From NCBI RefSeq assembly GCF_000002995.4, contig NW_025062287.1:1-64000 (forward strand): DNA of 64,000 bases, in the 5' to 3' direction. The notes beneath the pieces were generated by a model, which ran no database searches, was not told the DNA's origin, and worked only from the letters and a program-made list of their open reading frames with translations. Below, in pieces: positions 35,819-64,000 of this stretch. This stretch comes from Brugia malayi. Its lineage: Eukaryota > Nematoda > Chromadorea > Rhabditida > Onchocercidae. The position numbers and the translations under genes were made by a program. Within the stretch, counting starts at the first letter, position 1. The number at the start of each line of letters is the position of its first letter.

Positions 35819-36117
35819 ATGAAATCCATATAAGAAATTAATAATTTATTGATCATTTTTAATCACTTTGCGTCAGTTTTTTCACATGCCTGTCGTTTCT
35901 TGCGTAATTCTTTGCGACTTTTTGGTGGTTCAATTCATAATGAGATTTGCTCAAATTTAGGTCGTCGTTTCAAATTTGATGCCGATTCTTGACTGCTACT
36001 TGTTCGAATTTCAGCTGATTCTAGTGTTGGAAAGCTTGTGATAGCGGCGCCTGATCTTTCCTGTTCACCACTACCGCCACCAATAGCACCACCGCCAACA
36101 GTACCATCAATAGCACC
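35819..36117 (-). pseudogene. Decayed last exon of the BTB-BACK gene, 3' part
   Basis: Closely matches the end of the intact last exon at 49865-50121, in the same orientation, including the codons for the basic C-terminus. It is more diverged than the full copies are from one another, and carries an in-frame TGA where the others read CGA (in the QIPLRTEP region). The similarity stops at 36117, where the outer retrotransposon LTR begins, and resumes at 48831. An old, non-functional partial copy. Confidence 0.85.
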
Positions 36118-36195
36118 TGTCGTGAAAGACGAAATATTTAAATTATTATATCCAAAACTAACAAATTCCTCTTATCTAATTCCTTTTCCTCACAC

Positions 36196-36258
36196 AAAAA
36201 ACCCTTTTAGCAAACCCTTCGTTAGCAAACCCTTTGTTAGCATAACCCTTTATTAGCA
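36196..36258 (+). repeat. Tandem 15-mers in the LTR U3
   Basis: About four imperfect copies of AACCCTTTGTTAGCA. Equivalent arrays lie at 48516-48573 and 60869-60925. The core CTTTRTTAGCAA also occurs in the unrelated-looking LTR of the nested element, suggesting binding sites for a host factor. Confidence 0.75.
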
Positions 36259-36445
36259 ATCTTTGTTTCACATCAGTTAAATATCCTCTGCCGGATATCT
36301 GGTCAGCTCAGTTCTGCATATAAACCATCGTCCTCCATACGGTGGTTCATTCTGCATTTTGGGATGATTTTGATATCATTTTAATGTTTTATAATTATAT
36401 CTTTCGTTACGCGTTTGTTAATCGGTGTAGCATCCGTACGATATG

Positions 36446-36451
36446 TATAAA
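36446..36451 (+). promoter_or_regulatory. TATA box of the outer LTR promoter
   Basis: TATAAA 35 bases before the first G of SL1. The same motif is at 48763-48768 in the 3' LTR. Confidence 0.65.
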
Positions 36452-36480
36452 GCGCTATTATTTGCCTCATGTTAAATAAA

Positions 36481-36502
36481 GGTTTAATTACCCAAGTTTG
36501 AG
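36481..36502 (+). other. SL1 spliced-leader exon sequence inside the 5' LTR
   Basis: All 22 bases match the nematode SL1 exon (GGTTTAATTACCC followed by AAGTTTGAG). It lies 35 bases after the start of TATAAA and directly abuts AATAAA, i.e. at the expected R region. Followed by a second TTTGAG and then GTTTCACGACA. It lacks the downstream part of an SL RNA gene (no GTAAAC donor or Sm site), so it is not an SL RNA gene. Confidence 0.95.
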
Positions 36503-36530
36503 TTTGAGGTTTCACGACAAAGAATAATTT

Positions 36531-36547
36531 TGGTGCCCGAGGTGAGG
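36531..36547 (+). other. Primer-binding site of outer element
   Basis: TGGTGCCCGAGGTGAGG begins 11 bases after the 5' LTR and one base before the Gag ATG at 36549. TGG at the start matches a tRNA CCA end. The primer tRNA is not identified; matching it to tRNA 3' ends would decide. Confidence 0.7.
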
Positions 36548-36548
36548 T

Positions 36549-37209
36549 ATGTCAGCTAGTATAATTGTTCAAGCTACACCAGTAAAAGCGAATCTCGAGG
36601 GACTCCTCGATGAAATACAACAAATGGATCTAACTCCGTTAGACCAAAAAGCGACAGTAGAAGTATTGTGCCAGCAATACGAAGCAAGGGCAAGGATCAT
36701 CAAAGAAAAGTTGATGCGCCTCGAAAAATACGTTGGCACTCTTGAGAAGATCAACGACAAATGGTTGGAACACATTCAACTAGCCCCAATGTCGCAAAAG
36801 AAAAAAGAAGAAGAAAAATACGAACAAATGGCAAACGACGATAGAGGTATTTTAAAATTAATTAACATAGGTACGGATACCATTATAACCTTATCTATGT
36901 ACAAGGATGATACAGAGTTAGCCCTTAAACGTCTAGCACAAATTAAAGAACCTAGCTTAACTGAATGTCGTCCAGTAGTAAATTTAACACAATTGTCGTC
37001 ACCAACGTTTAGTGGAGACCCTAAAACATGGAGAGAATTCTGGAGTAGTTTCGAAGCCTCCGTACACTCTCAAAACATACCAGATATCTAAAAATTAAAT
37101 TACTTGGTTTCTTGTTTAAGAGGAAACGCCCTGCAGCTAGTAAGAGGTTACGATAGGGCACCTGAAAACTATAGAATTATAAGAGAATTATTAGTGGAGA
37201 AATTTGGTC
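36549..37209 (+). pseudogene. Outer element Gag, N-terminal half (broken)
   Basis: ATG at 36549 opens a Gag of the BEL/Pao type, with an N-terminal helical region and the conserved FSGDPKTWREFW segment. An in-frame TAA at 37089-37091 breaks it; the frame then continues with recognisable Gag (LVSCLRGNALQLVRGYD) up to about 37209, where the nested element is inserted. Its homologue in the nested element reads through the same position without a stop. Confidence 0.88.
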
Positions 37210-37214
37210 GTGTT

Positions 37215-37707
37215 TGTAGTGGAAGCAAAAATGTTTTTGGAAACAACCTTTATGATTTGGTTAAATTGTTATTCGGGGGAGAAGTTTGATGTCAGGGAGA
37301 TGTGTTGGATGCCAGCTAAATATTTGGGCAACAATTGAATAAACTGATTCGGAGGATTGGATGATTTTTTAAACTGATCTAATTGACAATAGTATGGTTA
37401 TAAAATCTACATTGATGTTAGACAATGATCCAAACAAAGGAGAGGAGGTGCTTGCATGGGCACCAGTTGCTAATAAAGAGCTTATTAGATAACCGCATGA
37501 TTATGATAGCTAACAAAGAACAATGTAGATATCCTCATGATTGTAAGGATTGCTAACAAAGAACGATGTAAATTGTTTCAATATGTAGAAGCATAAATTT
37601 GGAAACAAAGAGTCCGAAGTATAAGCATTATTTGCGGAAATTACGTAGATATCTTTACTACAATTTGCAACTCATATTTTTAGATCGCGATATTAAAATC
37701 CGCGACA
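37215..37707 (-). repeat. 3' LTR of nested BEL/Pao element (493 bp)
   Basis: On the minus strand it begins TGTCGCGGATTTTAAT and ends TTGCTTCCACTACA. It is preceded on that strand by CGGTCGGGAG, the same boundary motif (CGGGAG|TGTCG) as in the outer element. Confidence 0.95.
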
Positions 37708-38249
37708 CTCCCGACCGAAGGAGCTAAATGCTTTAGTTCGTTGGACAGCTTTGGTTGATTGCTTCGCCTTATAGCGCTTCTAGTTCGTAGAGCAATTGGT
37801 TCTTGTTCATTGACATTTTGCACTGATTTGTTAAACATTGTTGGTTGAGGGTCAATTTCCTCACCTTTGACTTCCAGTGGGTATAACATATTCACCGGTC
37901 TGTTGAGTATTTTTCCTTTCGGTAATTCTATCGAGACACTTCTCACTTCTCCATCCTTTCCTGTTTTGATTTCTCTTATTCTGGCTAGTTTCCACATGCC
38001 ACGGGGAATTTCTGGTTCATTTAGTAACACAATCTCTCCCTCGTGGGGAGTTCTTTTTACTACATCTCTCGGAGAAGAGTGTTCCCTTTGTGCTCTTTCT
38101 TTAAGAGTATTTAAATATTCCTCTTTCCATATTTCCCAGAAGGCATCGAGGGCCTTTAGTGTATTTGACCAGTATTGAATGAGTTTTTCTCTCGAATCCA
38201 ATTTATGAGGGATAAAATCATCCATTTCATTCTTGTTTTTAGCAGGCAT
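37680..38249 (-). CDS. Nested element Pol C-terminal segment (DUF5641-like)
   Basis: Continues Pol with LDSREKLIQYWSNTLKALDAF and IPRGMWKLARIREI, the DUF5641-type tail of BEL/Pao Pol. The frame runs through the LTR boundary, and its stop codon lies 27 bases inside the 3' LTR. Joined to the integrase frame by a one-base frame change near 38250. Confidence 0.85.
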   Translation of the reverse strand: MPAKNKNEMDDFIPHKLDSREKLIQYWSNTLKALDAFWEIWKEEYLNTLKERAQREHSSPRDVVKRTPHEGEIVLLNEPEIPRGMWKLARIREIKTGKDGEVRSVSIELPKGKILNRPVNMLYPLEVKGEEIDPQPTMFNKSVQNVNEQEPIALRTRSAIRRSNQPKLSNELKHLAPSVGSVADFNIAI

Positions 38250-38251
38250 GA

Positions 38252-40009
38252 TTAGATGCGCATTCGTAGTATAAAGTCAATTGGACGCAATATGATACAA
38301 TCATCAAAATTTACGTAAGTTAGTGGTCGAGTATTCAAAATACTTTCCACTTCCGCTACTAGCGTAATCAATTCCCGTTCCCATAATAACTTTCTGCCGA
38401 TGGCTCTTTTCATTGCCCTTTTTGTTAACCCAATAAGTCGCTCATATACTCCTCCGTTCCAAGGCGCCTTTGGTATTATATTTTTCCAGATCATTTTCCT
38501 TTCCGCTAGGAATTCATTTAATTGTTGTTTCACAATGATTTTAAAAATTAACTGGAATTGACCAGCGTTGTCGCTTAAGATTAATTCTGGAAAGCCTCGT
38601 CTTGCTGTAAATCTTCTGAAAACATGTAAAAAGCTTTCGGCTGAAAGAGTTTCTACTACTTCTAGATGTACAGCTCTTGTTGTGAAACATGTGAATAGTG
38701 CTACCCATCTTTTTGTTAGCCCATTATCACTCCTGATATTCACAGGACCTAAATAGTCTAGTCCTACTCGCGCAAAGGGTCTTGATCTTGTGGTCCGAGA
38801 TGCTGGAAGATCAGCCATAGTTGGTAATTTGAATGGTTTAGTTGTCCAGCGTCTGCACTTCATGCACTTATTCAAGATTCGTTTGACTTCCGTTCTACCT
38901 TTTGGGATCCATATCGTCGATCTCAGATTTGAGAGTGTATGAGCAATTCCAGCATGATACAGTTGTTCATGTCGTTGCTGAATAAAGAGTTCAGTTATGG
39001 TGTTGTGTCTCGGGAGATATATTGGGTGTAAGTTACTCTCTTTCATTTCAGAGTTAACTACGCGGCTTTTGTATCTCCATAGTTCGTTATCATAGAACAA
39101 ATTCCATTTGATTATTTCATCTTTGGTAACTCCTTCTGACTGTGCTTGTTTGAATAGCACAATTTCTGACAACTCGTAATCCTGTGTTGTCAATATATTC
39201 TTTTCTTTCGTTGCCATCTTTAGCCAAGGAATTTCCCTTTTCATTGTTAATCTTATGAATTTCAGAACCCAACCAGTTGTTCTTATTAATCTTGACCATT
39301 TGCTAAAACGACTAGCATCTAAGATTCCGAAATGTTTGTTTATGATAATTGGTTCTGTGATGTGGGCCACAATTTCTTCATCCTGGTAATCCTCATTGTA
39401 ATTGTATTTCCACTGTGGCCATTTTGATTCGTTTTCTGTTAACCACTTTGGTCCTTTCCACCAAAGATCATATCCTTTTAGTTTATTCGGAGAGATTCCT
39501 TTTGTAGCTATATCAGCTGGGTTTTGTTCACTTGGGATATATCTAAAATGGATTTTCGCCTTTCGTATTTCTTCTACCCTATTTTGTATGAACGTTGGTA
39601 GTAAACGGGAACTATTGTGAACCCAATGAAGCGCACATTGAGAATCGGACCATAAAATTGTTATCACGTCCTCAAGCTCTTTTTGTTTTAATACGAATTG
39701 TACCATTCTCACTCCGATGAGTATTGCCAGTAATTCTAATCGAGGTATTGACATTCCTTTAATTGGCGCAATTCGGGATTTAGCAAACACTAAGAATACT
39801 TCTCTTTCTTGAGTTCGAATGTATAAAGCTGCTGAGTATGCAGCAGTTGATGCGTCAGTAAAAACATGAAATTGTACTTGCTCGGAACAATTTGTTGTGA
39901 ATCTTGGTAGATCCTTTAGTTTCTTTGGCCATTCGTTCGTGAGTAATTTCCACGTGGTTTCATCTTCCTCACTTATAGTTTGATCCCATGAAAGGTTCTT
40001 TTTCCACAA
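38252..40009 (-). CDS. Nested element RNase H-integrase segment of Pol (585 aa open frame)
   Basis: Long open frame. RNase H at residues about 50-170: [49 protein letters not shown]. Integrase zinc finger H-H-C-C near 345-390 ([11 protein letters not shown] ... CMKCRRW). Catalytic core [11 protein letters not shown] near 430, [10 protein letters not shown] near 495, GVYERLIG near 540. Ends by frame change at IDFILRMRI, after which the conserved C-terminal part continues in another frame. Being open over 585 codons shows the element is young. Confidence 0.9.
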
Positions 40010-41073
40010 AGTTTGGGAGAAACAATTTGAATCTTATCAGTATAGGAACTATGAATCCTGGTGGGTCATATTGTGAGGCTACGAATTGCAATACAATTCT
40101 TTTAGTTAATTTCTTACCAAACCATGGTTTTAACGTTACTTGAATGATATCTTGTTGTGGTACCAATTGAGACCTAGAATTTTTTTAATTGAACTTACCT
40201 CTGCTCGATCTTGTACCGGAAGTTTTTCATTGACTTCTTGGTCGTTAGAGAGAAATTCCCGTACATTCATTGATGCTTCATTGAATATAATTTTAATTTC
40301 CTTATAATTGGAAAGAGCTTCGTTGGTTCCTTTGGTTGGTATTATAATGTTATCGACATAGAGATTTTTCCTTAACTCGAGTGCGATTTTGCTTTTACAA
40401 GTTTCCAAATGATAATTGAGTGTAGCGGACAATAAAAATGGAGATGATACAATTCCAAATGGAACTCGTTGGAAACGGTAACAACTTACGTTTTCTTCGT
40501 TAACTGGACTTCGAATGTCTTTCAACCAAAGAAATCGAGTGCAGTTTCTATCTGTTGGATGCAATTCTATTTGCAAGAACGCCTTTTCTACGTCTGCTAT
40601 TATTACATTTTTCATTGTACGGAAACGTAGCAAAACTCCAACCAAATCAGGAGTGTTATTGGTCCCCGATATAAAACATCATTTAAACTTTTCATTCCTT
40701 TACAATGAGCTGATGCATCATAAACTATCTCAGATTTGTCGTGGTTTTATTTGGTGTTATTACTTCGTGATGAGGCAGATAATGAATAATACCAACTTCA
40801 TTCATTTCCGATGACACTTTCTCAATTATATTGGAATTGAGTTGTTCTTCAATAGTTTGATTGTATCGACTTAGTAATTGAGGTTTCATTTGAAGCCTCC
40901 TAATTAACGACTTTAATCTTCCAAGGCAAAGTCCGAAATTATCGCTTAGTTTGTTCTTTGAATCTTTCCAAGGCCAACAAACTTGATATCTTCCCTTGTC
41001 CCTAGTGATAGTTTGTTTAAATTGCTGCAATGCTTTTTCATCATTGTCAGAGTTTATTTGTCTTGTATACCCA
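40010..41073 (-). pseudogene. Nested element reverse transcriptase in three frames
   Basis: Pieces at 41030-40725, 40645-40136 and 40166-39969. Motifs: [40 protein letters not shown] and the catalytic [10 protein letters not shown] (YVDN for YVDD, as in the outer element). Frame changes near 40725-40650 and near 40150-40130 interrupt it. The reverse transcriptase content is otherwise complete. Confidence 0.88.
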
Positions 41074-43110
41074 TTATTCCAGTTTCCAAAAGTGATCTAA
41101 GTCTGGAATATTGACGGCATTGACTTGAGAAATCGGACTTACTGATGTGGTTTCTGAAATACTGTCGTGTATTTCATTTATATACCCACTTCCAGCTATT
41201 ATAGGTCCAACCTTTGTATGGATCAATGAAAATCCTGATTTTAAGTTCTCTGCTTGGTCAAACTGGATAAACTTGAAGAAGTGATCCGCACCTATGAGTA
41301 TGTCCGGTTGTTTCCATTTGTTTTTGAAATTACTAAACTGATTTCGTTTGTCTATCATCAACAATTCCTTTTTGTTTAGATTAACTACTTGCAATTCATT
41401 CGTCAAGTGGTTAACTGTTATTACATCTAATCGGATTATTTCTTTATTTCCAATTTTTACTCCGATTTCAGTTTTAGTAGTGATACACGTTTTTGGCGTC
41501 TTATCACCAAATGAAGCAATTTTTATTTCCATCTCGTTAGTTTCTTGTAGATTCAATCGATAAGCCAAATCCTTTGATATGAACGATAATTGAGAACCAA
41601 TATCGAATAGAATTAAAGCCTTTTGTTGGATTTTTGGGCGATTTGGATTGGTTACATTTATTTCCTTACATAACAGTAAGGTTCGCTTTTTCCATTGATT
41701 TCCTTTTTCGGTAATGGAGTTAGCGATTGTGACTGAACCCAACCTTTCTTTGTTGGAATCCACTGCTTGCGTGAGTTCCTTGTAGTTGTTGGGACACAGT
41801 GCTGTATTGTGTGGACTTTTACAATGGAAACACAAAGGTTTCCCTTTTTTACAATCACTTGTTGCATGTCCTTTTCGTAAACATTTGAAACATGCAGTGA
41901 TTTCTCTCAAACGTTCCATCCGGAGTTTGAGAGTGGGATAGATGTTACATTCATTGTTCCAGTGGTCCTTATTGCAAAATACGCATGGTTTCCTTTTCCC
42001 ATTTATAGAAATTTTTCCTGGAACCTTTTTTGATTTGATTGTATTATCTCCCTTTGTTTGGTTGATTGTGGCGAAAGCTGACGTTTCGCCTCTAACATTA
42101 TTTTTGTTTGTTTTCTTCTCCCTTGTGTCTGCTTGACTTCTAGCAACTTCTTCATTTCTTAGAACTAGTTTTGTCAGGTACTGCCGGATATCCTTAACTG
42201 ACCAACTCGTCGAATCCTCTTTCAATTGGTATAATTTATCAATTATCCACGCTGGTAGTTTATTTTCAATTGTAATTTCGATGCTTGAATGCTCTAAATT
42301 TTCACCTATAGCTTCCAGTTGTCGAAATGTTCTCTCCATGGCTTCTATGGTTGCTTTCCACTCTCGGTCATTTTTTTTGATGGTATTCAACTCGTTGTAG
42401 AGTGATTTCTTTATAAGGAAAGGTTTACCATATTTCTCTTTTAGTAAACCTATTATAACATCGTAGTTTTCTGGCGCTATATCATAACCTCTTACAGATA
42501 ACAAAGCATCTCCTTTAAGACATGATATCAGATAGTTTAACTTTTGAATATCTGGGATGCTTTGCTCATGGACTGCTGCCTTGAAACTACACCAAAATTG
42601 CCTCCACAATTTTGGATCCCCACTAAACGTTATTAGTGGTAATTGAGGAAGTTTTATTTCTGCTTGATTTGTGTGAATCATACTATTCTTTGGAAATGAT
42701 TCTTTGACCTCTTCTTGTTTTAAATGTTGTAGTACCGAGCAATATTCATCAGTATGTATTTTAAGGGTAATAATAGTTTCTCTTGTTCTAGTGATTAAAC
42801 TTAAAATACCTTGTGGATCGTCAACCATATTGGCGTATTTCGTCTCCTCTTCCTTTCTCCTCGTTGCTATTGTCAAGCTCTGAATATTATCCAGCCAATT
42901 TTGATTAGCTGTTTCGAGTAACCCAGCATAATATTCGAGATGTGCGATCTTCTCCTTGACGATTCGCAATTTAATTTCGTATTGATGCTGAAGTTCCCCT
43001 CGTGATAGTGTTTGAGACGGGGAGGTCAGATCGAGTTCACTTGCTTCTTTAAGAAGTTCTAGAGTTCTCGACTTCGATAATTCGCTTCCTTTTCTTATAC
43101 TGTCGGACAT
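41074..43110 (-). CDS. Nested element Gag-protease polyprotein (678 aa, open)
   Basis: Single open frame from the ATG next to the primer site. Residues about 1-150 are helical Gag N-terminus; FSGDPKLWRQFW lies near 165. Nucleocapsid CCHC knuckles are near residues 375-440 (CVFCNKDHW, CFKCLRKGH, CFHCKSPHN). The DUF1758-type aspartic protease has LFDIGSQLSFIS near residue 500 and PDILIGADHFF near 600. The catalytic triad is D-I-G rather than D-T/S-G. The frame stops at 41074 just where reverse transcriptase would follow, implying a frameshift, a real lesion, or a consensus error, since the following frame resumes in BEL/Pao sequence. Confidence 0.92.
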   Translation of the reverse strand: MSDSIRKGSELSKSRTLELLKEASELDLTSPSQTLSRGELQHQYEIKLRIVKEKIAHLEYYAGLLETANQNWLDNIQSLTIATRRKEEETKYANMVDDPQGILSLITRTRETIITLKIHTDEYCSVLQHLKQEEVKESFPKNSMIHTNQAEIKLPQLPLITFSGDPKLWRQFWCSFKAAVHEQSIPDIQKLNYLISCLKGDALLSVRGYDIAPENYDVIIGLLKEKYGKPFLIKKSLYNELNTIKKNDREWKATIEAMERTFRQLEAIGENLEHSSIEITIENKLPAWIIDKLYQLKEDSTSWSVKDIRQYLTKLVLRNEEVARSQADTREKKTNKNNVRGETSAFATINQTKGDNTIKSKKVPGKISINGKRKPCVFCNKDHWNNECNIYPTLKLRMERLREITACFKCLRKGHATSDCKKGKPLCFHCKSPHNTALCPNNYKELTQAVDSNKERLGSVTIANSITEKGNQWKKRTLLLCKEINVTNPNRPKIQQKALILFDIGSQLSFISKDLAYRLNLQETNEMEIKIASFGDKTPKTCITTKTEIGVKIGNKEIIRLDVITVNHLTNELQVVNLNKKELLMIDKRNQFSNFKNKWKQPDILIGADHFFKFIQFDQAENLKSGFSLIHTKVGPIIAGSGYINEIHDSISETTSVSPISQVNAVNIPDLDHFWKLE

Positions 43111-43129
43111 GTCCCGGCTCGTGGCACCA
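43111..43129 (-). other. Primer-binding site of nested element
   Basis: Minus strand TGGTGCCACGAGCCGGGAC, four bases inside the 5' LTR and abutting the Gag ATG at 43110. Shares TTTTGGTGCC with the outer element's site. The primer tRNA is not identified. Confidence 0.7.
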
Positions 43130-43133
43130 AAAT

Positions 43134-43628
43134 TGTAGTGGAAGCAAAAAATGTTTTTGGAAACAAACCTTTATGATTTGGTTAAATTGTTATTCGGGGG
43201 AGAAGTTTGATGTCAGGGAGATGTGTTGGATGCCAGCTAAATATTTGGGCAACAATTGAATAAACTGATTCGGAGGATTGGATGATTTTTAAAACTGATC
43301 TAATTGACAATAGTATGGTTATAAAATCTACATTGATGTTAGACAATGATCCAAACAAAGGAGAGGAGGTGCTTGCATGGGCACCAGTTGCTAATAAAGA
43401 GCTTATTAGATAACCGCATGATTATGATAGCTAACAAAGAACAATGTAGATATCCTCATGATTGTAAGGATTGCTAACAAAGAACGATGTAAATTGTTTC
43501 AATATGTAGAAGCATAAATTTGGAAACAAAGAGTCCGAAGTATAAGCATTATTTGCGGAAATTACGTAGATATCTTTACTACAATTTGCAACTCATATTT
43601 TTAGATCGCGATATTAAAATCCGCGACA
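43134..43628 (-). repeat. 5' LTR of nested BEL/Pao element (495 bp)
   Basis: Near-identical to 37215-37707. On the minus strand the end reads CATAAAGGTTTGTTTCC and then runs to CCACTACA. U3 contains three CTTTRTTAGC motifs. Confidence 0.95.
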
Positions 43629-44340
43629 GTGTTTCCACTATAAGAAAATTACTTTACAATGAACTCATATCTACAAAAACGAAACAACCGAGACTGGAAA
43701 ACAATAATCGAAGAAATGGAGAGAGTTCTAAGGCAGTTAGAAGCAATTGGCGAAAACGTAGAGCAACCTACCATCGAAACGATAATAGAATCCAAATTGC
43801 CAAACTGGATATTAAACCAGGTTTATCAACAAAAAGAAGAAGATGGCCAGTGGTCCGTAACAAAACTTCGACAGCTTCTCAGGAAGATAATTAATAGAAA
43901 CGACCAGGTAATGAATGGCAATACTTGGATAACGTCAGTCGTAAAAATTTAATTAAACGTCATCCTAACGCAAGCATTCCAGAAAATTCAGCATTGATTG
44001 CAATAAAACAATTAAAGCAAAACAAGAGGAACGGCTTCAGCCGAAAGAAACCAGCTAAATCAAGAGAATCCAATTGGTCGACAAAAAAGAAAAGGAGACC
44101 CTGTATCTTCTGCAATAACAATCACTGGGATAGCAAGTGTCACATATATTCTACAGTGGAGCAGCGAATTGATCGATTGAAGGAAATCAATGTTTGCTCT
44201 AATTGTTTTAAATCTGGACACAACGAACTCAACTGCATAAAAAGAGCAAGTTGTTTTTATTGCAAAAAATCCCACAATAGCGCCCTTTGTACCACTAAGA
44301 CTCGTGATTCTGGAGAGTTGAAGAAAGTTGAAAAGAAATG
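43629..44340 (+). pseudogene. Outer element Gag, C-terminal half with zinc knuckles (broken)
   Basis: Resumes after the nested element with the second GTGTT. The frame is shifted near the insertion, then reads MERVLRQLEAIGEN and reaches a cysteine/histidine-rich nucleocapsid region at about 44100-44300 (CIFCNNNHW, CSNCFKSGH, CFYCKKSHN), three CCHC-like knuckles typical of BEL/Pao Gag. At least one further frameshift lies near 43925-43950. Not translatable as one protein. Confidence 0.88.
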
Positions 44341-44343
44341 AGT

Positions 44344-44906
44344 ACTACTTTTATGTAGAGAAATTAATGTCTTTAATCCTGATAAACCTGAAACATCAAG
44401 TACAAGCTTTAGTACTGTTTGACGTCGGCGCAGATGCGACCTTTATCTCACAAAGGCTAGCTCATCGACTAAATCTCCTAGAAACTGATGAAGAAGAATA
44501 TAAGATCTCTTCCTTTGGCAATAGGACTCCTCGAGTATGCCGCACAACTCAAACACAAATTGGAGTGAAAACGGAAAACTCCGATCAAGTGACTATCCAA
44601 GCCACTGTAATGGATTATTTGACAAACGATCTTCAAGTGATGGAAGTGGTAGACAAAGGTGAGAATTACCATCTTAAAAGTTACAAGAAACAACCTGACA
44701 TAGTTATAGGAGCTGACTATTTCTTCAACTTTATTCATATGGAAAACGCTCAGCAACTAAAGTCAGGATTCACTTTACTGAACAGCAAAGTTGGACCTAT
44801 CATAGCAGGAAGCGGTTATACAAATGAATTGTGCCATCACCAGATCTTTGCAACGAAGACATCTCAAGAAAACCGTGCCCCAGATATAGATCAATTTGGA
44901 AGTTAG
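44344..44906 (+). pseudogene. Outer element aspartic protease region
   Basis: Retropepsin-like DUF1758 segment. [13 protein letters not shown] holds the catalytic aspartate in a D-V-G context where D-T/S-G is usual, so activity is doubtful. Followed by the conserved [14 protein letters not shown] and [11 protein letters not shown] motifs. The frame is separated from Gag by a stop at about 44340 and from the reverse transcriptase by a stop near 44904. Confidence 0.85.
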
Positions 44907-45822
44907 ACTGTATTGGCATCCAAGATCGATCTGATACACAAGATGATGAACAAGCACTGGAACAATTTAAGAAGAGTATCACTAAACAAAATGGAAGATA
45001 CGAAGTACGTTGGCCATGGAAACCATGCAAAGGCAAATTGAGCGATAATTATGGATTATGCGTCAGCCGTTTGCGAATGCTAATAGCACGACTTCAGTCC
45101 CATAAAGAGGAATTACAAGAATATGATAAAGTAATGCAAGATCAACTACAATCTGGCATAATCGAAGAAGTACAATCACAAATGAATCAAGATGGAATTA
45201 TTCATTACCTGCCACATCATGATGTTCGTAATCCAGGTAAAACTACCACTAAGTTAAGGATTGTTTATGATGCTTCAGCGCACATAAAAGGAATGAAAAG
45301 TTTAAATGAAGTATTATATCGTGGATCAATTAACCTCCAGATCTTGTGGGAGTATTATTACGCTTTAGAATGATGAAAGGGGTAATCACAGCTGACATTG
45401 AAAAGGCATTCTTACAAATACAGTTACACCTTCAGAGAGAAATTGTACTCGCTTCCTTTGGCTAAAGGAAGTAGAAGGAAGTGTATCCAACGAGAATATA
45501 AAATGTTACCGTTTTAGAAGAATCCCGTTTGGAGTAATATCATCCCCCTTTTTACTATCTGCTACCCTGAATTATCATTTGGAAAACCACGTTAGTGAAT
45601 TAGCCGCAGAAATAAAGAAAAATCTTTATGTGGACAACGTTATTGTGTCATCAAACGGAACGCAGGACGCATTAGAAAAATATGCGGAAATGAAATCCAT
45701 CTTCAATGAAGCCTCAATGAATCTAAGAGAGTTCTTATCTAACGACGAAGAATTTTATGCAGAACTGCCGCAGCAAGATCGAGCAATAAGAAAAAATACG
45801 AAAATCCTCGGCATCTCATAGA
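44907..45822 (+). pseudogene. Outer element reverse transcriptase (frameshifted)
   Basis: BEL/Pao reverse transcriptase in pieces. Motifs in order: GIIHYLPHHDV and KLRIVYDASAH (45196-45283), ADIEKAFLQIQ (45390-45425), a phase change around 45430-45500, FRRIPFGVISSPFLL, then the catalytic box KNLYVDNVIV (about 45618-45650), a YVDN form of YVDD. An early frameshift at about 45372 and a later one near 45433 disable it. Confidence 0.88.
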
Positions 45823-46690: not shown

Positions 46691-48426
46691 GCAAATGGCT
46701 AAGACTGTTACGAACAACAGCGTGGATCCTTAAATTCATTCGATTAACAACTAAAGGCAGATTATCATGGCTACAGTCTGTTTCAATCGAAAGAAATCGA
46801 TTTACAGCTGAAGATTACAAAGTGTCAGAATGGCTGTTAATTAGACAAGCACAATCTGAAGAAATCAATGACGACGAAATAAACAAGTGGAATTTATTCC
46901 ACACCGAATTTTTTCACGATGATAAACTATGGAGATCTACTAGCCGACTCGTGAACTCGGAACTGCCTGAAACTAGCAAATATCCTATCTATCTCCCTCG
47001 GAACAACTCAATAACAGAACTCCTTATACTACACCAACATGAAAATCTATGTCATTCAGGTATCGCCCATATACTTTCAGAATTAAGGAGTAGATTTTGG
47101 ATTCCCAAAGGCAGGACTGAAGTAAAGCGAATAATAAACAGATGTCGAATCTGTAAACGTTGGAACTCCAGATCGTTTAAATTACCACCAATGGTAAGTC
47201 TCCCGGAAACTCGTGTCAATCGATCTAGAGCCTTCGCACATGTTGGCGTGGATTATTTTGGCTCTCTTTTAATCAAGGGCAATAGCGTGTCAACAAAAAG
47301 GTGGGTAATATTATTTACATGCTTTACAACAAGAGCCATACATCTCGAATTAGCAGAAGACCAATCCGCAGAAACCTTTTTGCATGCTATCCGAAGATTT
47401 GTTGCGAGACGAGGGTGTCCTGAGCTAATTCTGAGTGACAATGCCACTCAATTCAGGCTTTCAGATCTCTTATGACACAATCAATACTCTTATGACACAA
47501 GTCAAAGTCTCCAACTTCTTAGCAAAGGGAGGAATGACTTGGAAAAATATTATACCAAAGCTCCGTGGCAAGGAGGAATCTACGAGAGATTAATTGGTTA
47601 ACGAAAAATGCGCTAAGAAGAGCCATTGGCAGAAAATTCCTAGCGGAAAGGGAATTGGTAACATTAATTGCAGACGTTGAAGGTATACTTAATACCCGAC
47701 CACTAACTTACGCTAATTTTGACGATTGCGTCATTATACGTCCAATTGATTTTATTTTGCCTAACGCTTCGCTCCATCTACCTATAAATGAAGTTTATAG
47801 CAGGCAGGAAGAATTCACCCCTTATAGACTAGATACCAGAGAAAAACTCGTGAGACACTGGGAAAGTACCCTTAAAACTCTCAATGTTTTTTGGGAAATC
47901 TGGAGAACCGAATATTTAACTAGCCTCAGAGAACGCACGCAAAGGGAATTACCTCATCCAAAGGAGCACAAAAAAGAACTCCAAGAAAGGGAGAGATTGT
48001 ACTCTTAAATGAATCGGGAATTCCAAGAGGAATGTGGAAATTATTACGGATCAAGGACATCAAAATCGATAAAGACGGTAAAGTTAGGAACGTTTAGGTG
48101 GAAACTCCCACTGGGAAACTTCTCGATCGTCCAATAAATGTCTTGTATCCTCTCGAGTTAATGATGAAGAAATTCATCTTGAACCTAATAAGAAAGAAAA
48201 TATGAAAATTCCGGAAACCGAACAGAACACTGAGGAGCTCCAGGAACCTATTGCGATGCGAACTAGGAGCAATACAAAACGACAATCTCGATTAAAGGAG
48301 GACCAAACAACTATCACCGCACCATCATCAGAAACCTGTAGAGATTTACACGATCAAAAACAGATCAATAGAAGTAAACAACCCCACTTTCTTATAAACC
48401 CCACGCATTACCCACCTTTCTGATCG
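46691..48426 (+). pseudogene. Outer element integrase and C-terminal Pol (broken)
   Basis: Integrase zinc-binding H-H-C-C is visible ([11 protein letters not shown] ... CRICKRW, about 47037-47160). Catalytic core follows with first D in HVGVDYFG, second D in [10 protein letters not shown] (about 47430-47455) and the E in GIYERLIG (about 47577-47598). A stop at about 47473 and a frameshift near 47560-47600 break it. The DUF5641-like C-terminal part ([14 protein letters not shown]) runs to about 48008, then another stop; residual coding similarity continues to 48423. Confidence 0.85.
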
Positions 48427-48430
48427 GGAG

Positions 48431-48830
48431 TGTCGTGAAAGACGAAATATTTAAATTATTATATCCAAAACTAACAAATTCCTCTTATCTGATTCTTTTC
48501 CTCACACAACAAAAACCCTTTGTTAGCAAACCCTTCGTTAGCAAACCCTTTGTTAGCAAAACCCTTTATTAGCAATCTTTGTTTCACATCAGTTAAATAT
48601 CCTCTGCCGGATATCTGGTCAGCTCAGTTCTGCATATAAACCATCGTCCTCCATACGGTGGTTCATTCTGCATTTTGGGATGATTTTGATATCATTTTAA
48701 TGTTTTTATAATTATATCTTTCGTTACGCGTTCGTTAATCGGTGTAGCATCCGTACGATATGTATAAAGCGCTATTATTTGCTTCATGTTAAATAAAGGT
48801 TTAATTACCCAAGTTTGAGGTTTCACGACA
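48431..48830 (+). repeat. 3' LTR of outer BEL/Pao element (400 bp)
   Basis: Same ends and internal order as the 5' LTR: TATAAA at 48763-48768, AATAAA at 48792-48797, SL1 at 48798-48819, then the last 11 bases GTTTCACGACA. It is preceded by GATCGGGAG, probably the plus-strand priming region. The LTR fragment at 60853-61182 shares its diagnostic bases (GCGTTCG, GCTTCATG), not those of the 5' LTR. Confidence 0.95.
48798..48819 (+). other. SL1 spliced-leader exon sequence inside the 3' LTR
   Basis: 22 of 22 bases match SL1, here followed directly by GTTTCACGACA and the end of the LTR. Same spacing to TATAAA (35 bases) and to AATAAA (0 bases) as in the 5' LTR. Confidence 0.95.
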
Positions 48831-48869
48831 GCACCATTGCCAATAGTACTACCAGTAATGACACCATCT
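48831..48869 (-). pseudogene. Continuation of the decayed BTB-BACK last exon beyond the retrotransposon
   Basis: GCACCATTGCCAATAGTAC and the following bases to ACCATCTCT match 50116-50154 and continue the fragment ending at 36117. After that the sequence is unrelated to the gene, so this fragment was already truncated. Its first five bases (GCACC) are the target-site duplication of the outer element. Confidence 0.85.
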
Positions 48870-49579
48870 CTTATTCAGATGGATGATGATGGTGATAACG
48901 ATGATTGTGGCTTTCTATGCAGGTAGCTTAAGTTTAATTTCGAAAATTGGAAGAAATTGCTAGCAGAAATAAATATGAAAAAATAATAAAAAATAAAATA
49001 AAATAAAACGAACTAATCATTTCATCACTTAGCATTAGTATACGCAACAATTGAAAGCTAAAATGATAGCTTGCAATGATTACTTTTGGCGAAATAAAAT
49101 TTGATGACGAAAAAAAAAAGAAAGCATTAATTAATTTGTTGATAAAGTGATGTCAGATTTCATTTTGAAATTGCCAGAATTTGAAACAAAATGTTAAAAT
49201 ATTCAAATTGATAGTTATTTCGACATGTACACATGTACATTTGGCTTGACTTATTAGTTATTGATTTTAACAACAAATTTCAACTTAAATTTTTCTTTTT
49301 TTGAAAATTTAAAATTTTTTAGTCATAAAGTAATATTATTGAATTATTTTTACTTTGGTATTATTTTTGCTGTAATTGAAATTACAAATATTATGATTTG
49401 TTCTCTAATCTAGCTTATTAGAAATCATTATTAATTTAAATGAGAATTTTAATTTGGATCTTACGTTTGGATATTACGATGCTTATAATTGTATGAGACG
49501 CTAAACTAAAGTTTAGCAATTTAAGCAGCGTGAAATTCATCATTATATGATATGTGAATACGTTTTTTTTCTTTTGTTT
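48870..49579. other. Non-coding flank between outer element and first BTB-BACK repeat unit
   Basis: AT-rich, no gene seen. Near-identical to about 61222-61928. Contains an 8-bp-stem palindrome GCTAAACT-AA-AGTTTAGC at 49500-49517 (repeated in the second copy near 61850-61867). Confidence 0.8.
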
Positions 49580-49864
49580 TGATAAGAGCAAAAAAATATT
49601 GTTTCATTTTTCTCTTCTAAACAACTAAAACCATTCAAAAATTTTTTTACTCTGAGAAATCAATTATAATTTCTAAGTTTGATTGATTATACCTATAATT
49701 TAGTATGTTTATGGCAAAATCAGAAAGAAAAAATATTTTCTTTTTTATTCCTTTTAAAATTATAATTAGCACATTGGGAAATGAAGAAAAAATGTTATGA
49801 TAGTACGGTGAGAATTAAATTTGAAATTCATATAGGAAATTAATAATTCATTGATCATTCTTAA

Positions 49865-52800
49865 TCACTTCGTGTCAGTTTTTTCACGTGCCTGTCGTTC
49901 CTTACGTAATTCTTTGCGACTTTTTGGTGGTTCAGTTCGTAATGGGATTTGCTCAAATTTAGGTCGTCGTTTCAAATTTGATGCCGATTCTTGACTGCTA
50001 CTTGTTCGAATTTCAGCTGATTCTAGTGTTGGAAAGCTTGTGATAGCGGCGCCTGATCTTTCCTGTTCACCACTACCACCACCAATAGCACCACCGCCAA
50101 CAGTACCATCAATAGCACCATTACCAATAGTACTATCAGTAATGACACCATCTCTAATAGTATCACCATCGATAACACCACAATCAGTAGTATCAATTCC
50201 AGCCGCACCACCACCGATAGCACCAGCAGTATCATCGTTAGCAGCAGCATCAGAAGTAGTAATAGGAACATTTGAGTAGGTGAGTATCGGATCATTACGT
50301 GCTGTAATTACCATACAAATCGAATCATGAGAGCTTTTTGGTGGTAATATAGAGAGAGTTTGGTGCTATTTTGGAGTGGAACCATTTCACTTGTTACATT
50401 TCCACTTTTAGACAAATGCTTTGATTGTTGAGTTAAAATTTCAAACCAAAATTGTCATCCACTATCACTAATCTTTTCCTGGGTTGGGTAAATTACGCTA
50501 TTTTGATAACCTGTTCGATTACGAGAACTACCAGATCCTATTGGAAGCTGTTGAGCTGGACGCCAATTTTTGTCAACTGATACGGATGTTTCATTACTAA
50601 TACTTCTGGTTGTTACAGATGATACCGAATCAAAAGGTGGAATGATATATGATCCAAGAGGTGATGATGCTAATCCTAATGTTCCTCTTAATGGATCTGG
50701 TGCAATTGCAGTTTCTGCACCAGACACCGTATAGATGGACGATGATAATGATTGATTGCGATTTTGTGGTGATGTCAAATGATCTATAATTTAATTTTTA
50801 GGTAGCTATTTTGTTCTAAATTTTTAATGTTAACTTTTAATCATATACTTATACATTGATTTTTTTTTTTTGTTTCGCAAACATACAAATTTAAATGATT
50901 ACAAATTTTCTTTTCATAATGTGAAATTGATATATTTGTTTAAAAAATCAAAAAATAAAAAAAATGGAAACCACAAATTTGGCATAAATTGCATCCATTA
51001 AAAAGAGTTGCACAATTGGTCCCAAATCTGGTACATCCAATGATTTCTTCATTATTTCTTGACGCTAGAAAAATTAAAAAAGAATTTTATCTTATCATGT
51101 ATTAAATCCTTATTTTCTTTATCTTTAATAATTTATCTGCCATTTTTTAAATAATCCTTATAATTGGAAGTTTTAAAAAAAAAAAAAAAATTAAATGAAG
51201 CAAATAGGAGAGAAATAGATAACAAAATAACAAACGTTATCAGCCACATGAATAATTTCCTTGAAATTAACATTATCCAAAAGAGCTGGCGCATAACAAA
51301 TATGTTCAGGATTATTTTGAAGCCAAAATATGATCGCTTCATAAATTTCTGATACCCATTCAGGTCCTTGTAATACTGGTGAAGAAATAAGCGCATAAAG
51401 CATTTCGAATGATAACTAAAAAAAGGGAAAGAGAGAGAGAGAAAGAGAAAGAAGAATATTAGTTCTTTTAAATTTAGGCAACTTTCCTAATTTTTTTTCT
51501 TTAAATTGCTCTGAAATAATAATGAAAACAAACAAAAAAATATACAAAAGAAATTATTTCTTTTTTTTTCCTATACTTTTAAAAATTCTGGGTTTGCCAG
51601 AATATCATGAAATTTTATTGCTGCACCATCAACAACCATATTACGATACTGTGATTGTCTAAATGTAAGATAAAAATTAATGATAAGAAAAAAGTTATGA
51701 TAAAATAATTTTTTTTATAGATAGTAATATTATAGTTTCATTTAAGATAATAACAAAATTTCGTTGAGCGATTAGATTTTTTCCTTTTTTATTATAAATT
51801 TTGGACTTTTTTTTATGCTAGAAGCTTTGAAACTATAAACAGGTAAACATTGATAAATACCTGATTATATGATTTAAAATGAAAAAATTAATTAAACAAA
51901 CGGAGCTAGACAAGCAATAGCAGAGTAAAGTAATGAAATTGGTGGTGATGTATTTTCTAATATGCGTGCAGTCATTTCTTCACAAATTAATGATACCAAT
52001 GAAGTTACCTGAAAACTTTTTCTTTTTTTTGTGTCAAAATTTTTTTAAATAAAAATTTAACTGCAAATACAATTATATCTGCTAATCATAACTATAATTT
52101 TATTGGATAGAAAGATTTGCTTTCCATTTATTTTAATTATTAAAAAGAATATTTGTCTCTATTTAATCACTACAATTTTTTTCTATATCATTTAAATATC
52201 TTTTGTTAAGGTATATTTTCAGAATTCAGACATTTTGTTCCATCTGTATTGGTTTTATCAATTCTTCGTTTAGCCTATTTAATTCATTTGACTTTGTCAA
52301 CTGATTTCATTTTTTTTTTTTTTTTAAAATAAAAGTGTTATTTTAATTCCTAAATTCTTTATTATTAAGTTAAGTTTAATGTATTTACTCGAAGATCATT
52401 AGCTGCTATTAGAACATTCTCCAATTCAGTTTCTAAAAATTTAATTTGTCCACTTTGAATGAAAGCTACCACGTTATAGAGACCGGCATTCGTAATATTT
52501 GGCATACCATATAAATGAACTGTGATTTCTTTACCGGATGAAAGTATTTCCGGTGTTGCCTAAATATAATCTTTCTAGGATAGTTACTCATATTACTTTT
52601 ATAGTTATTTAAAATTTTAATTAGTTTATAAAATACTTTCATTACATAAATAATATTTGTGACAAGTATAAATGTATAAAATTCCTATATTAATGATAAT
52701 TTACTCAGGTGCAACAGATCAATATATCAAAAATATATCAAAAATCAAATTAGCTCATTTCTTTTTTTTATTTAAATTGTTTCATATTTCTATATATCAA

Positions 52801-54093: not shown

Positions 54094-54436
54094 TAATGTA
54101 TTTTTCAATACAATTTGAATAATTGATAGTTCGAAAAATTATTTCACGCATTAACTGATAAGAGCAAAAAAATATTGTTTCATTTTTCTCTTCTAAACAA
54201 CTAAAACCATTCAAAAATTTTTTTACTCTGAGAAATCAATTATAATTTCTAAGTTTGATTGATTATACCTATAATTTAGTATGTTTATGGCAAAATCAGA
54301 AAGAAAAAATATTTTCTTCTTTATTCTTTTAAAATAATTAGCACATTGGGAAATGAAGAAAAAATGTTATGATAGTACGGTGAGAATTAAATTTGAAATT
54401 CATATAGGAAATTAATAATTCATTGATCATTCTTAA
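54094..54436 (-). promoter_or_regulatory. 343-bp intergenic region between BTB-BACK copies 2 and 1
   Basis: Lies between the stop of copy 2 (54437) and the ATG of copy 1 (54093), same strand. Contains AATAAA on the minus strand at 54320-54325, about 112 bases after the stop of copy 2, and the duplication junction at 54156-54160. The size and order resemble a nematode operon spacer. Confidence 0.5.
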
Positions 54437-57400
54437 TCACTTCGTGTCAGTTTTTTCACGTGCCTGTCGTTCCTTACGTAATTCTTTGCGACTTTTTGGT
54501 GGTTCAGTTCGTAATGGGATTTGCTCAAATTTAGGTCGTCGTTTCAAATTTGATGCCGATTCTTGACTGCTACTTGTTCGAATTTCAGCTGATTCTAGTG
54601 TTGGAAAGCTTGTGATAGCGGCGCCTGATCTTTCCTGTTCACCACTACCACCACCAATAGCACCACCGCCAACAGTACCATCAATAGCACCATTACCAAT
54701 AGTACTATCAGTAATGACACCATCTCTAATAGTATCACCATCGATAACACCACAATCAGTAGTATCAATTCCAGCCGCACCACCACCGATAGCACCAGCA
54801 GTATCATCGTTAGCAGCAGCATCAGAAGTAGTAATAGGAACATTTGAGTAGGTGAGTATCGGATCATTACGTGCTGTAATTACCATACAAATCGAATCAT
54901 GAGAGCTTTTGGTGGTAATATAGAGAGAGTTTGGTGCTATTTTGGAGTGGAACCATTTCACTTGTTACATTTCCACTTTTAGACAAATGCTTTGATTGTT
55001 GAGTTAAAATTTCAAACAAAATTGTCATCCACTATCACTAATCTTTTCCTGGTTGGGTAAATTACGCTATTTTGATAACCTGTTCGATTACGAGAACTAC
55101 CAGATCCTATTGGAAGCTGTTGAGCTGGACGCCAATTTTTGTCAACTGATACGGATGTTTCATTACTAATACTTCTGGTTGTTACAGATGATACCGAATC
55201 AAAAGGTGGAATGATATATGATCCAAGAGGTGATGATGCTAATCCTAATGTTCCTCTTAATGGATCTGGTGCAATTGCAGTTTCTGCACCAGACACCGTA
55301 TAGATGGACGATGATAATGATTGATTGCGATTTTGTGGTGATGTCAAATGATCCTATAATTTAATTTTTAGGTAGCTATTTTGTTCTAAATTTTTAATGT
55401 TAACTTTTAATCATATACTTATAACATTGATTTTTTTTTTTTGTTTCGCAAACATACAAATTAAATGATTACAAATTTTTCTTTTCATAATGTGAAATTG
55501 ATATATTTGTTTAAAAATCAAAAAATAAAAAAATGGAAACCACAAATTTGGCATAAATTGCATCCATTAAAAAGAGTTGCACAATTGGTCCAAATCTGGT
55601 ACATCCAATGATTTCTTCATTATTTCTTGACGGCTAGAAAAATTAAAAAAGATTTTATCTTATCATGTATTAAATCCTTATTTTCTTTATCTTTAATAAT
55701 TTATCTGCCATTTTTTAAATAATCCTTATAATTGAAGTTTTAAAAAAAAAAAAAAAATTAAATGAAGCAATAGGAGAGAAATAGATAACAAAATAACAAA
55801 CGTTATCAGCCACATGAATAATTTCCTTGAAATTAACATTATCCAAAAGAGCTGGCGCATAACAAATATGTTCAGGATTATTTTGAAGCCAAAATATGAT
55901 CGCTTCATAAATTTCTGATACCCATTCAGGTCCTTGTAATACTGGTGAAGAAATAAGCGCATAAAGCATTTCGAATGATAACTAAAAAAAGGGAAAGAGA
56001 GAGAGAGAAAGAGAAAGAAGAATATTAGTTCTTTTAAATTTAGGCAACTTTCCTAATTTTTTTTTCTTTAAATTGCTCTGAAATAATAATGAAAACAAAC
56101 AAAAAAATATACAAAAGAAATTATTTCTTTTTTTTCCCTATACTTTTAAAAATTCTGGGTTTGCCAGAATATCATGAAATTTTATTGCTGCACCATCAAC
56201 AACCATATTACGATACTGTGATTGTCTAAATGTAAGATAAAAATTAATGATAAGAAAAAAGTTATGATAAAATAATTTTTTTTATAGATAGTAATATTAT
56301 AGTTTCATTTAAGATAATAACAAAATTTCGTTGAGCGATTAGATTTTTTCCTTTTTTATTATAAATTTTGGACTTTTTTTTATGCTAGAAGCTTTGAAAC
56401 TATAAACAGGTAAACATTGATAAATACCTGATTATATGATTTAAAATGAAAAAATTAATTAAACAAACGGAGCTAGACAAGCAATAGCAGAGTAAAGTAA
56501 TGAAATTGGTGGTGATGTATTTTCTAATATGCGTGCAGTCATTTCTTCACAAATTAATGATACCAATGAAGTTACCTGAAAACTTTTTTCTTTTTTTTGT
56601 GTCAAAATTTTTTTTAAATAAAAATTTAACTGCAAATACAATTATATCTACTAATCATAACTATAATTTTATTGGATAGAAAGATTTGCTTTCCATTTAT
56701 TTTAATTATTAAAAAGAATATTTGTCTCTATTTAATCACTACAATTTTTTCTATATCATTTAAATATCTTTTGTTAAGGTATATTTTCAGAATTCAGACA
56801 TTTTGTTCCATCTGTATTGGTTTTATCAATTCTTCGTTTAGCCTATTTAATTCATTTGACTTTGTCAACTGATTTCATTTTTTTTTTCTTTTTTAAAATA
56901 AAAGTGTTATTTTAATTCCTAAATTCTTTATTATTAAGTTAAGTTTAATGTATTTACTCGAAGATCATTAGCTGCTATTAGAACATTCTCCAATTCAGTT
57001 TCTAAAAATTTAATTTGTCCACTTTGAATGAAAGCTACCACGTTATAGAGACCGGCATTCGTAATATTTGGCATACCATATAAATGAACTGTGATTTCTT
57101 TACCGGATGAAAGTATTTCCGGTGTTGCCTAAATATAATCTTTCTAGGATAGTTACTCATATTACTTTTATAGTTATTTAAAATTTTAATTAGTTTATAA
57201 AATACTTTCATTACATAAATAATATTTGTGACAAGTATAAATGTATAAAATTCCTATATTAATGATAATTTACTCAGGTGCAACAGATCAATATATCAAA
57301 ATATATCAAAAATCAAATTAGCTCATTTCTTTTTTATTTAAATTGTTTCATATTTCTGTTCTAATTTCATCACTTCATTTCTATCCTGAATACTATTTGA

Positions 57401-60852: not shown

Positions 60853-61182
60853 TTCCTCACACAACAAAACCCTTTGTTAGCAAACCCTTCGTTAGCAACC
60901 CTTTGTTAGCAAAACCTTTTATTAGCAATCTTTGTTTCACATCAGTTAAATATCCTCTGCCGGATATCTGGTCAGCTCAGTTCTGCATATAAACCATCGT
61001 CCTCCATACGGTGGTTCATTCTGCATTTTGGGATGATTTTGATATCATTTTAATGTTTTATAATTATATCTTTCGTTACGCGTTCGTTAATCGGTGTAGC
61101 ATCCGTACGATATGTATAAAGCGCTATTATTTGCTTCATGTTAAATAAAGGTTTAATTACCCAAGTTTGAGGTTTCACGACA
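60853..61182 (+). mobile_element. Truncated LTR of the outer BEL/Pao element (duplicated)
   Basis: Matches the 3' LTR from TTCCTCACAC (48498) to its end CACGACA (61176-61182), followed by GCACCATTGCC exactly as at 48831. It lacks the first about 67 bases of the LTR and has no 5' target duplication, so it arrived by segmental duplication rather than insertion. Confidence 0.93.
61150..61171 (+). other. SL1 spliced-leader exon sequence in the duplicated LTR fragment
   Basis: Third exact SL1 copy, carried along by duplication of the 3' LTR end. Same flanks as 48798-48819. Confidence 0.95.
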
Positions 61183-61220
61183 GCACCATTGCCAATAGTA
61201 CTACCAGTAATGACACCATC

Positions 61221-63995: not shown

Positions 63996-64000
63996 CTGTG

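Follow-up and report, generated by a model that had tools for sequence, protein, structure and literature searches.

SL1 spliced leader within BEL/Pao LTRs of Brugia malayi: a possible captured and inherited part of the R region

In Brugia malayi, 120 copies of the SL1 spliced leader have been reported outside the gene arrays, 60 of them within 1 kb of PAO elements. As far as the accessible parts of that report go, there are sometimes two such copies near an element, on the same strand as it, and trans-splicing before integration was inferred (PMC7181701). The SL1 given there, GGTTTAATTACCCAAGTTTGAG, is also that of the genome studied here. Both the association of SL1 with PAO elements and the idea of trans-splicing are therefore already in print and were noticed first by others (PMC7181701). 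What is new here, measured against the available text, is the position of SL1 inside the LTR, its exact exon limits, its occurrence in seven LTR or LTR-like types, the existence of sister families without it, and a chimera joined at SL1.

Other trans-spliced or leader-bearing retroelements are known. Cer1 of C. elegans, a Ty3/gypsy element, has a 2.4-kb spliced mRNA that is SL1 trans-spliced and an 8-kb RNA that is not (PMC3315495). Retrotransposon genes containing a spliced leader have been described in Schistosoma mansoni, where, by the authors' own word, an assembly fault is possible (PMC5832876), and LINE loci with partial leaders have been described in flatworms (PMC12582326). The accessible parts of PMC4558846 and PMC3156134 hold nothing on SL1 in LTRs. 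In the open PMC literature, within the text available to us, we found no description of SL1 as a part of an LTR R region; one could exist elsewhere, for instance for the Ascaris element Tas.

The window element and its SL1 copies

The window, that is, the whole stretch of 64,000 nucleotides that was analysed, lies at a contig end, and its bases 1-12542 are a long AAGCCT array (the complement of TTAGGC), a telomere. Near-identical segmental repeats are present in 35820-64000, where 49580-52791 is repeated at 54156-57357 and 48498-51653 at 60853-64000, the second copy of the latter beginning inside an LTR; the segment 35820-36117 has three further near-identical copies.

A BEL/Pao element with DUF1759, DUF1758, a reverse transcriptase (RT) piece, H2C2 and rve is bounded in the window by two similar LTRs with TG..CA ends and by a 5-bp target duplication (Table 1). 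Over 395 aligned sites, its LTR pair differs by 4 substitutions and 5 gap runs. TGGTGCCCGAGG is a putative primer binding site, and GATCGGGAG is presumably the polypurine tract. The second BEL/Pao element, nested in the first in antisense, serves as a comparator; the A17 protease is found in this nested element only and is not among the domains of its host. The nested LTRs are 99.4% alike and have GTGTT at both flanks. SL1 was not found in the nested element, the best fit (8-9 edits) being at shuffle level. Since more than 20 RT copies in the genome, about 98% alike, belong to its family, BEL/Pao elements in this genome can do without SL1.

Table 1. Features of the BEL/Pao element and of its surroundings, in window coordinates
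Feature	Position	Strand	Remark
Target site duplication GCACC, left	36113..36117	+
5' LTR, type A, of BEL/Pao element	36118..36519	+	repeat of 48431-48830; ends TGTCG...CGACA
Upstream TATAAA, about -162	36319..36324	+	counterpart of TATA motif in other LTR types
TATAAA at -35 from SL1	36446..36451	+	-35 motif seen only in types A and D
AATAAA abutting SL1 upstream	36475..36480	+
SL1 exon copy, 22/22, in 5' LTR	36481..36502	+
Extra TTTGAG directly 3' of SL1	36503..36508	+	5' LTR only
Putative primer binding site TGGTGCCCGAGG	36531..36542	+
gag frame start, DUF1759	36549..37091	+
Second BEL/Pao element, nested antisense	37215..43628	-	SL1-less comparator; LTRs 37215-37707 and 43133-43628
Protease region, DUF1758	44328..44906	+
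Reverse transcriptase piece	45402..45818	+
Integrase region, H2C2 + rve	46822..47475	+
Putative polypurine tract GATCGGGAG	48422..48430	+
3' LTR, type A, of BEL/Pao element	48431..48830	+	ends TGTCG...CGACA
SL1 exon copy, 22/22, in 3' LTR	48798..48819	+
Target site duplication GCACC, right	48831..48835	+
SL1 exon copy in truncated duplicated LTR	61150..61171	+	truncated LTR at 60853-61182

The host element has SL1 less than 1 kb from it and on the same strand, in the manner of the SL1-associated PAO elements. A preliminary description of this DNA had reported exact SL1 in both LTRs and in a duplicated fragment, together with a TATAAA 35 bases upstream and an abutting AATAAA, and all of these are present at the positions in Table 1. 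At up to 3 mismatches, the three exact copies are the sole matches to SL1 in the 64 kb, for a shuffle mean of 0.01; the LTR piece with the third copy sits in a 99.5% duplication of 48498-51653. From SL1 to the LTR end there are 17 nt in the 5' LTR and 11 nt in the 3' LTR, because a 6-nt TTTGAG repeat is present only in the former; the same repeat is found in a type C copy, L110. At the gathering score, Rfam detected no SL1 RNA in the window and did detect it in locus L001. Judged from their flanks, the LTR copies do not show the order of an SL RNA gene, in which the SL1 exon is followed by the SL RNA intron.

SL1-bearing LTR types and their SL1-less sisters

In the 86.8-Mb genome there are 371 matches to SL1 at up to 1 mismatch, SL RNA genes and arrays included, and none to the reversed control; positions were taken from the first 100 matches listed. 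SL1 was absent from the bacterial/archaeal and viral contig collections. A pattern that excludes SL RNA genes by requiring that the third base after SL1 is not A returned 91 exact copies, 85 of which continue with GTT; it misses copies reading SL1-GCA, such as most of type F. The loci sampled were stretches around most of the 91 exact copies and LTRs retrieved by LTR similarity (46 rows of matches for type A, 41 for C and 56 for F, with 40 candidates scored in each and the type F rows sampled in part only). They hold 83 distinct non-gene contexts with exact SL1, none adjoining the SL RNA intron; sorted by simple motifs, these are A 51, F 12 (and one more with CTCG), C 10, B 5, D 2, E 1 and G 1, beside one SL RNA gene.

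The preliminary description had suggested a look at other copies in the genome, and this turned up SL1 inside LTRs of seven types, and the sister families c59 and c62 without SL1 there. The seven LTR or LTR-like types (A-G) have unlike flanks and carry SL1 with exact exon limits. On its 5' side, SL1 is preceded by AATAAA in types A and D, mostly by TTGATTTGTT or TTGATTTGTC in types F and B, mostly by TTAATCTGT in type C, and by other letters in E and G. On its 3' side it is followed by GTTTCACGACA, which is the LTR end, in types A and B, by GTTTATTAATC...CCTTTCACGACA in type D, by GTTTGAATAATAAAG in type C, by (CTCG)GCAAAATAAAATATCTGGCAGTCAATACATTCCACGACA or near it in type F, and again by other letters in E and G. 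Alternative joints at the SL1 end are GCAAAAT and CTCGGCAAAAT, and a further one, ATTTAAACTCGG, occurs in one copy whose SL1 is itself damaged. SL1 is exact in 23 of 28 distinct full-length type A LTRs and in 12 of the 37 type F loci sampled; 13 of 40 type C places are in the exact-SL1 list, and the other 27 carry SL1 with 1 to 7 edits. Type E is represented by one copy, and type G by one exact copy, L079 (G000:C139:8844270-8844850), and one relative with a decayed SL1 (L017:2308-2756), near a divergent RT copy.

The type C repeat is about 476 nt long and begins TGTCGC. None of the eight copies with long flanks has a primer site of its own after the LTR; a lone TGGTGCC near the copy in L069 lies beyond a c59-type LTR, which starts directly after the type C LTR and is apparently inserted into it (G000:C139:4239600-4244900). 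Polypurine-like letters precede two of the eight, which are therefore taken as 3' LTRs, and the remaining copies may be solo LTRs.

Several arrangements deserve mention in their own right. Six type A LTRs in one direction (L027-L032, G000:C136:10315667-10326202), five of them identical and all spaced at about 2,031 bases, are a tandem array of a short element or unit. At L041 and L042 (G000:C16:30620 and 35214), an apparent element with 4.6 kb between its SL1 copies has a 5' LTR of type A and a 3' LTR of type B, and these discordant LTRs diverge just before SL1. A type F LTR, L132 (G000:C139:15341080-15341525), stands at the head of a tandem type A element array, in a place that would have been predicted to hold a type A LTR, at 6,017 bases instead of 6,014. 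Finally, the type F-like copy L140 (G000:C137:9936822-9937237) has GGTTTAATTGTTTTAGACTCCCTGAG in place of SL1 and may be a pre-capture state or a damaged copy. It reads GGTTTAATT and then GTTTTAGACTCCCTGAG before GCAAAT, with AG at the junction and 9 SL1 letters at the left limit; this junction is a singleton (one exact match, and near matches no more numerous than in the control), and it is not relied on here.

In a small RT tree of 13 rows, in which RT copies were matched to SL1 positions, the A elements, clade b and N are each separate from a group that unites D with c59 and c62. Within this group, an RT lying 2.8 kb past a type D LTR pairs with that of c59 (support 96/92). Two rows, L170 and L171, had been labelled C and A2, and these labels are withdrawn: no primer site follows the SL1 near L171, and near L170 a c59-type LTR comes after a type C LTR, the RT there more likely belonging to a c59-type element. 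Among the RT copies compared with SL1 positions, none was tied to types B, C, E or F.

The LTRs of c59 and c62 were spotted by eye in 5' pieces, the both-end comparison having found no repeat. They have no SL1 and read ...AAATAAAGGTTTATTAATC... and ...AAATAAAGGTTTTTTTAATC..., respectively. At the matching place type D has AAATAAA-SL1-GTTTATTAATC, where the sister reads AAATAAAGGTTTATTAATC: SL1 directly follows AAATAAA, and the sequence 3' of it follows an AG (AG/G) in the sisters. The sister junction contains GGTTTA, the first six letters of SL1, which could have received the strong-stop end. The sister form AAATAAAGGTTTATTAATCTTCC has 38 exact matches, and 63 at up to 2 mismatches, against 0 for the reversed control.

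The two sides of SL1 in type D have different relatives. D is like A from about -123 to +25 (86-89%) and not beyond, and also over 42-54 nt near the LTR start; it is like c59 from +20 to +87 at 91-93%, and 35 nt at the LTR start match c59 at 97%. In addition, a weak stretch (66%) lies at -366 to -223 in one D copy, which has nothing upstream near SL1. In shuffle tests, the 100 nt before SL1 give z 32.6 for A-D and 0.5 for c59-D, and the 38 nt after it give z -0.2 for A-D and 19.0 for c59-D. After the LTR, D (L080) has the c59-type TGGTGCCACGAGCCGGGA, where A has TGGTGCCCGAGGTGAGG. The distance from the RT on to the second SL1 is 4.7 kb in D and about 3.3 kb in A; AAATAAAGGTTTATT lies 4.7-4.8 kb past the RT in c59 and c62, agreeing with the layout of D. 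Judged by these sequences, type D is clearly a chimera joined at SL1, with an A-like U3 just upstream and, downstream, U5 and primer-site sequence as in an SL1-less family. Type B could be an F-like U3 end joined to an A-like U5, as its 100 nt upstream of SL1 are most like F (z 19.2; A z 7.6) and its 11-nt U5 is identical to that of A; a U5 deletion in F could mimic this, and against a chimera stands the presence of the short U5 motif of A and B in C as well (z 5.0 and 5.2). Strong-stop transfer is an established retroviral mechanism, and such a transfer between two RNAs sharing SL1 would give the patterns of D and B.

Extent of R, inheritance of SL1 and its proposed origin

Promoter and poly(A) motifs were compared in 12 representative LTRs. 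Representatives of B, C, E, F, b, c59, c62 and N lack the -35 TATA. Further upstream of SL1, TATAWA lies at about -163 in A, -116 in B, -191 to -202 in D and -182 in C, and at -123 in one of two type F copies, with none in the other; a TATA motif 116-202 nt upstream thus recurs in five types (A to D, and F with one of its two copies). The motif also lies at -162 to -218 in the SL1-less c59 and c62 and at -103 in the clade b representative; the E and N representatives have no upstream TATAWA near there. The position of AATAAA is -6 in A and D, +26 in F and +30 in C; none was found close to SL1 in the representatives of B and E. From these motifs, transcription of the primary RNA may well begin 90-170 nt ahead of SL1, and we think that SL1 lies within R, near the 3' end of R. 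With such an upstream start, SL1 would be the 5' end of the RNA only after trans-splicing.

Variants of SL1 are passed on. Among 36 type C copies, of which 9 have an exact SL1 and 27 do not, those with the same non-exact SL1 have a mean distance in the rest of the LTR of 0.058, as against 0.107 when shuffled, with 0 of 2000 shuffles as low, a result to which segmental duplication could contribute. Clade b LTRs carry GGTTTAATTACCCAAGATAAAG, with 15 exact places, and GGTTTAATTACCCAAGATTGAG has 10; several of these places are 6.0-7.6 kb apart, like LTR pairs. Since its variants are common to related copies, SL1 is inherited as DNA and mutable, and is not rewritten each time. Some variants recur, because L105 and L111, and likewise L106 with L098 and L099, have a common SL1 variant though they are not nearest relatives. 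In type F (27 copies, L140 and L160 having been excluded before the count), SL1 diversity is 0.091 versus 0.176 in other windows, 10 of 344 being as low; in type C it is 0.096 versus 0.102 (160 of 351 windows as low), and in type A 0.0065 versus 0.029, with 11% of windows as low, SL1-overlapping ones included. These values point to an SL1 that is either young or under constraint in F; in C it does not stand out, and its signal in A is no clearer than that of other stretches of low diversity. The idea of SL1 as an exceptionally conserved block within its family is not supported in C, which is at the LTR average, and has weak support in A.

LTR elements require identical letters at both RNA ends. 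A trans-splicing host replaces the 5' ends of mRNAs, in apparent conflict with this need; here, the leader itself seems to be the repeated piece. We propose, with about even confidence, that SL1 was captured from trans-spliced RNA and is now an inherited part of R in several BEL/Pao LTR types, where it would serve as homology for strand transfer and as a joint for exchange. Element RNA would start at the upstream TATA, and some molecules would lose their 5' end and gain SL1. Reverse transcriptase would copy SL1-U5 as minus strong-stop DNA, whose 3' end would jump to matching letters at the 3' end of the RNA, the target being at first a short microhomology to the SL1 start and later the SL1 already in the 3' LTR. 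SL1 would in this way be fixed between U3 and U5 and then passed on as DNA. Through the common R piece, strong-stop DNA of one family could jump to another, leaving LTRs with U3 and U5 from different families and the joint at SL1. The proposal predicts between-family chimeras at one exact point and, if true, describes a simple route by which trans-splicing shapes retroelements. It is tempting, though rather doubtful, to go further and regard SL1 as an interchangeable R, such that any trans-spliced element RNA with a primer binding site would pass its strong-stop DNA to any SL1-bearing LTR RNA, pooling the U3 and U5 modules of otherwise unrelated families.

Capture by reverse transcription of SL1-trans-spliced RNA is the best explanation because of the exact exon limits; these limits in many flanks, the SL1-less sisters, one chimera at SL1 and the inherited variants support it. 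Several points tell against it. The AG sites at the c59 and c62 junctions are A-rich, unlike TTTTCAG, the 3' splice-site consensus. In C the conservation of SL1 does not exceed that of the LTR around it, and in A it does so only moderately. D and c59 also fit a loss of SL1, since GGTTTA flanks it as a direct repeat through which one deletion could yield the sister form, and D could have arisen from an already encoded SL1 by a switch at AGGTTT. A single capture may lie behind types A, B, C, E and F, which weak U3 similarity links up to SL1.

The preliminary description had placed SL1 at the position of R and derived it from reverse transcription of trans-spliced RNA, with transcription starting at SL1 and R consisting largely or wholly of it. 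Part of this stands: the place in the LTR is inside R under either promoter reading, and the trans-spliced origin, an idea already in the available text of PMC7181701, best explains the exact exon limits. The remainder is not supported in the form given. If the -35 TATA directed type A transcription to begin at the first G of SL1, with cleavage right behind SL1, then SL1 would be the whole of R, copied from DNA and mimicking a trans-spliced 5' end. This reading would agree with the two motifs at -35 and -6 in types A and D and with the passing on of SL1 variants as DNA; it is nevertheless unlikely, as the -35 TATA is seen only in A and D and is missing from the representatives of B, C, E, F, b, c59, c62 and N, the upstream TATA is widespread (types A to D, the sisters and one of the two F copies), and the AATAAA that abuts SL1 in A and D comes after it in C and F. 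Hardly credible is a DNA capture of a piece of an SL RNA gene, or chance: SL RNA genes are plentiful, many of them tandem, but no sampled LTR copy shows the SL RNA intron after SL1, the Rfam SL1 RNA is in L001 with none in the window, and 0.01 matches are expected by chance per window at up to 3 mismatches.

Alternatively, the element RNA might be trans-spliced at the end of the encoded SL1 in each cycle, SL1 being rewritten from SL RNA and so staying perfect. Many copies do keep an exact SL1, and the TTTGAG repeat is present in two LTR types (A and C), as splicing at CCCAAG/TTTGAGG would give. Such renewal is quite improbable in view of the non-exact type C variants common to close relatives and of GGTTTAATTACCCAAGATAAAG and GGTTTAATTACCCAAGATTGAG at places with LTR-pair spacing, and as a rule for every family it is ruled out by the inherited variants. 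It is possible, though we doubt it, that a single ancient capture in an LTR ancestor has been inherited without a role, the chimeras reflecting ordinary template switching anywhere. The weak U3 similarity that joins A, B, C, E and F up to SL1, the decay of type C SL1 at the LTR average and the several SL1-less families with many copies would suit this; yet type G, among the matches listed, is like other sampled loci only in SL1, save for the one relative in L017, c59 and c62 are sisters of D and have no SL1, and the source of the sequence in D switches exactly at SL1.

Relation to known systems

Cer1 resembles the elements described here as a nematode LTR element with SL1 trans-spliced RNA. 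It differs in that only the 2.4-kb mRNA is trans-spliced, and the accessible text makes no mention of SL1 in LTR DNA (PMC3315495). Assuming a trans-spliced genomic RNA is disfavoured because the 8-kb RNA of Cer1 is not SL1 trans-spliced (PMC3315495).

The schistosome and flatworm loci (PMC5832876, PMC12582326) have in common with the present ones a leader in retroelement DNA by way of trans-splicing before reverse transcription; in the available parts of those reports, the leader is not shown as a shared part of an LTR. In dinoflagellate retrogenes, DNA-encoded leader remnants similarly mark retroposed trans-spliced RNA, but these are, in the text available, copies of host genes and not LTRs (PMC12014239). 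With respect to the SL1-flanked PAO elements of Brugia malayi, a fixed SL1 site within the LTR, the LTR types, the SL1-less sisters, the inherited variants and the SL1-joined chimeras are described here and not in the accessible parts of that report, whereas SL1 near PAO, on the same strand, with trans-splicing before integration, is what the two accounts share (PMC7181701).
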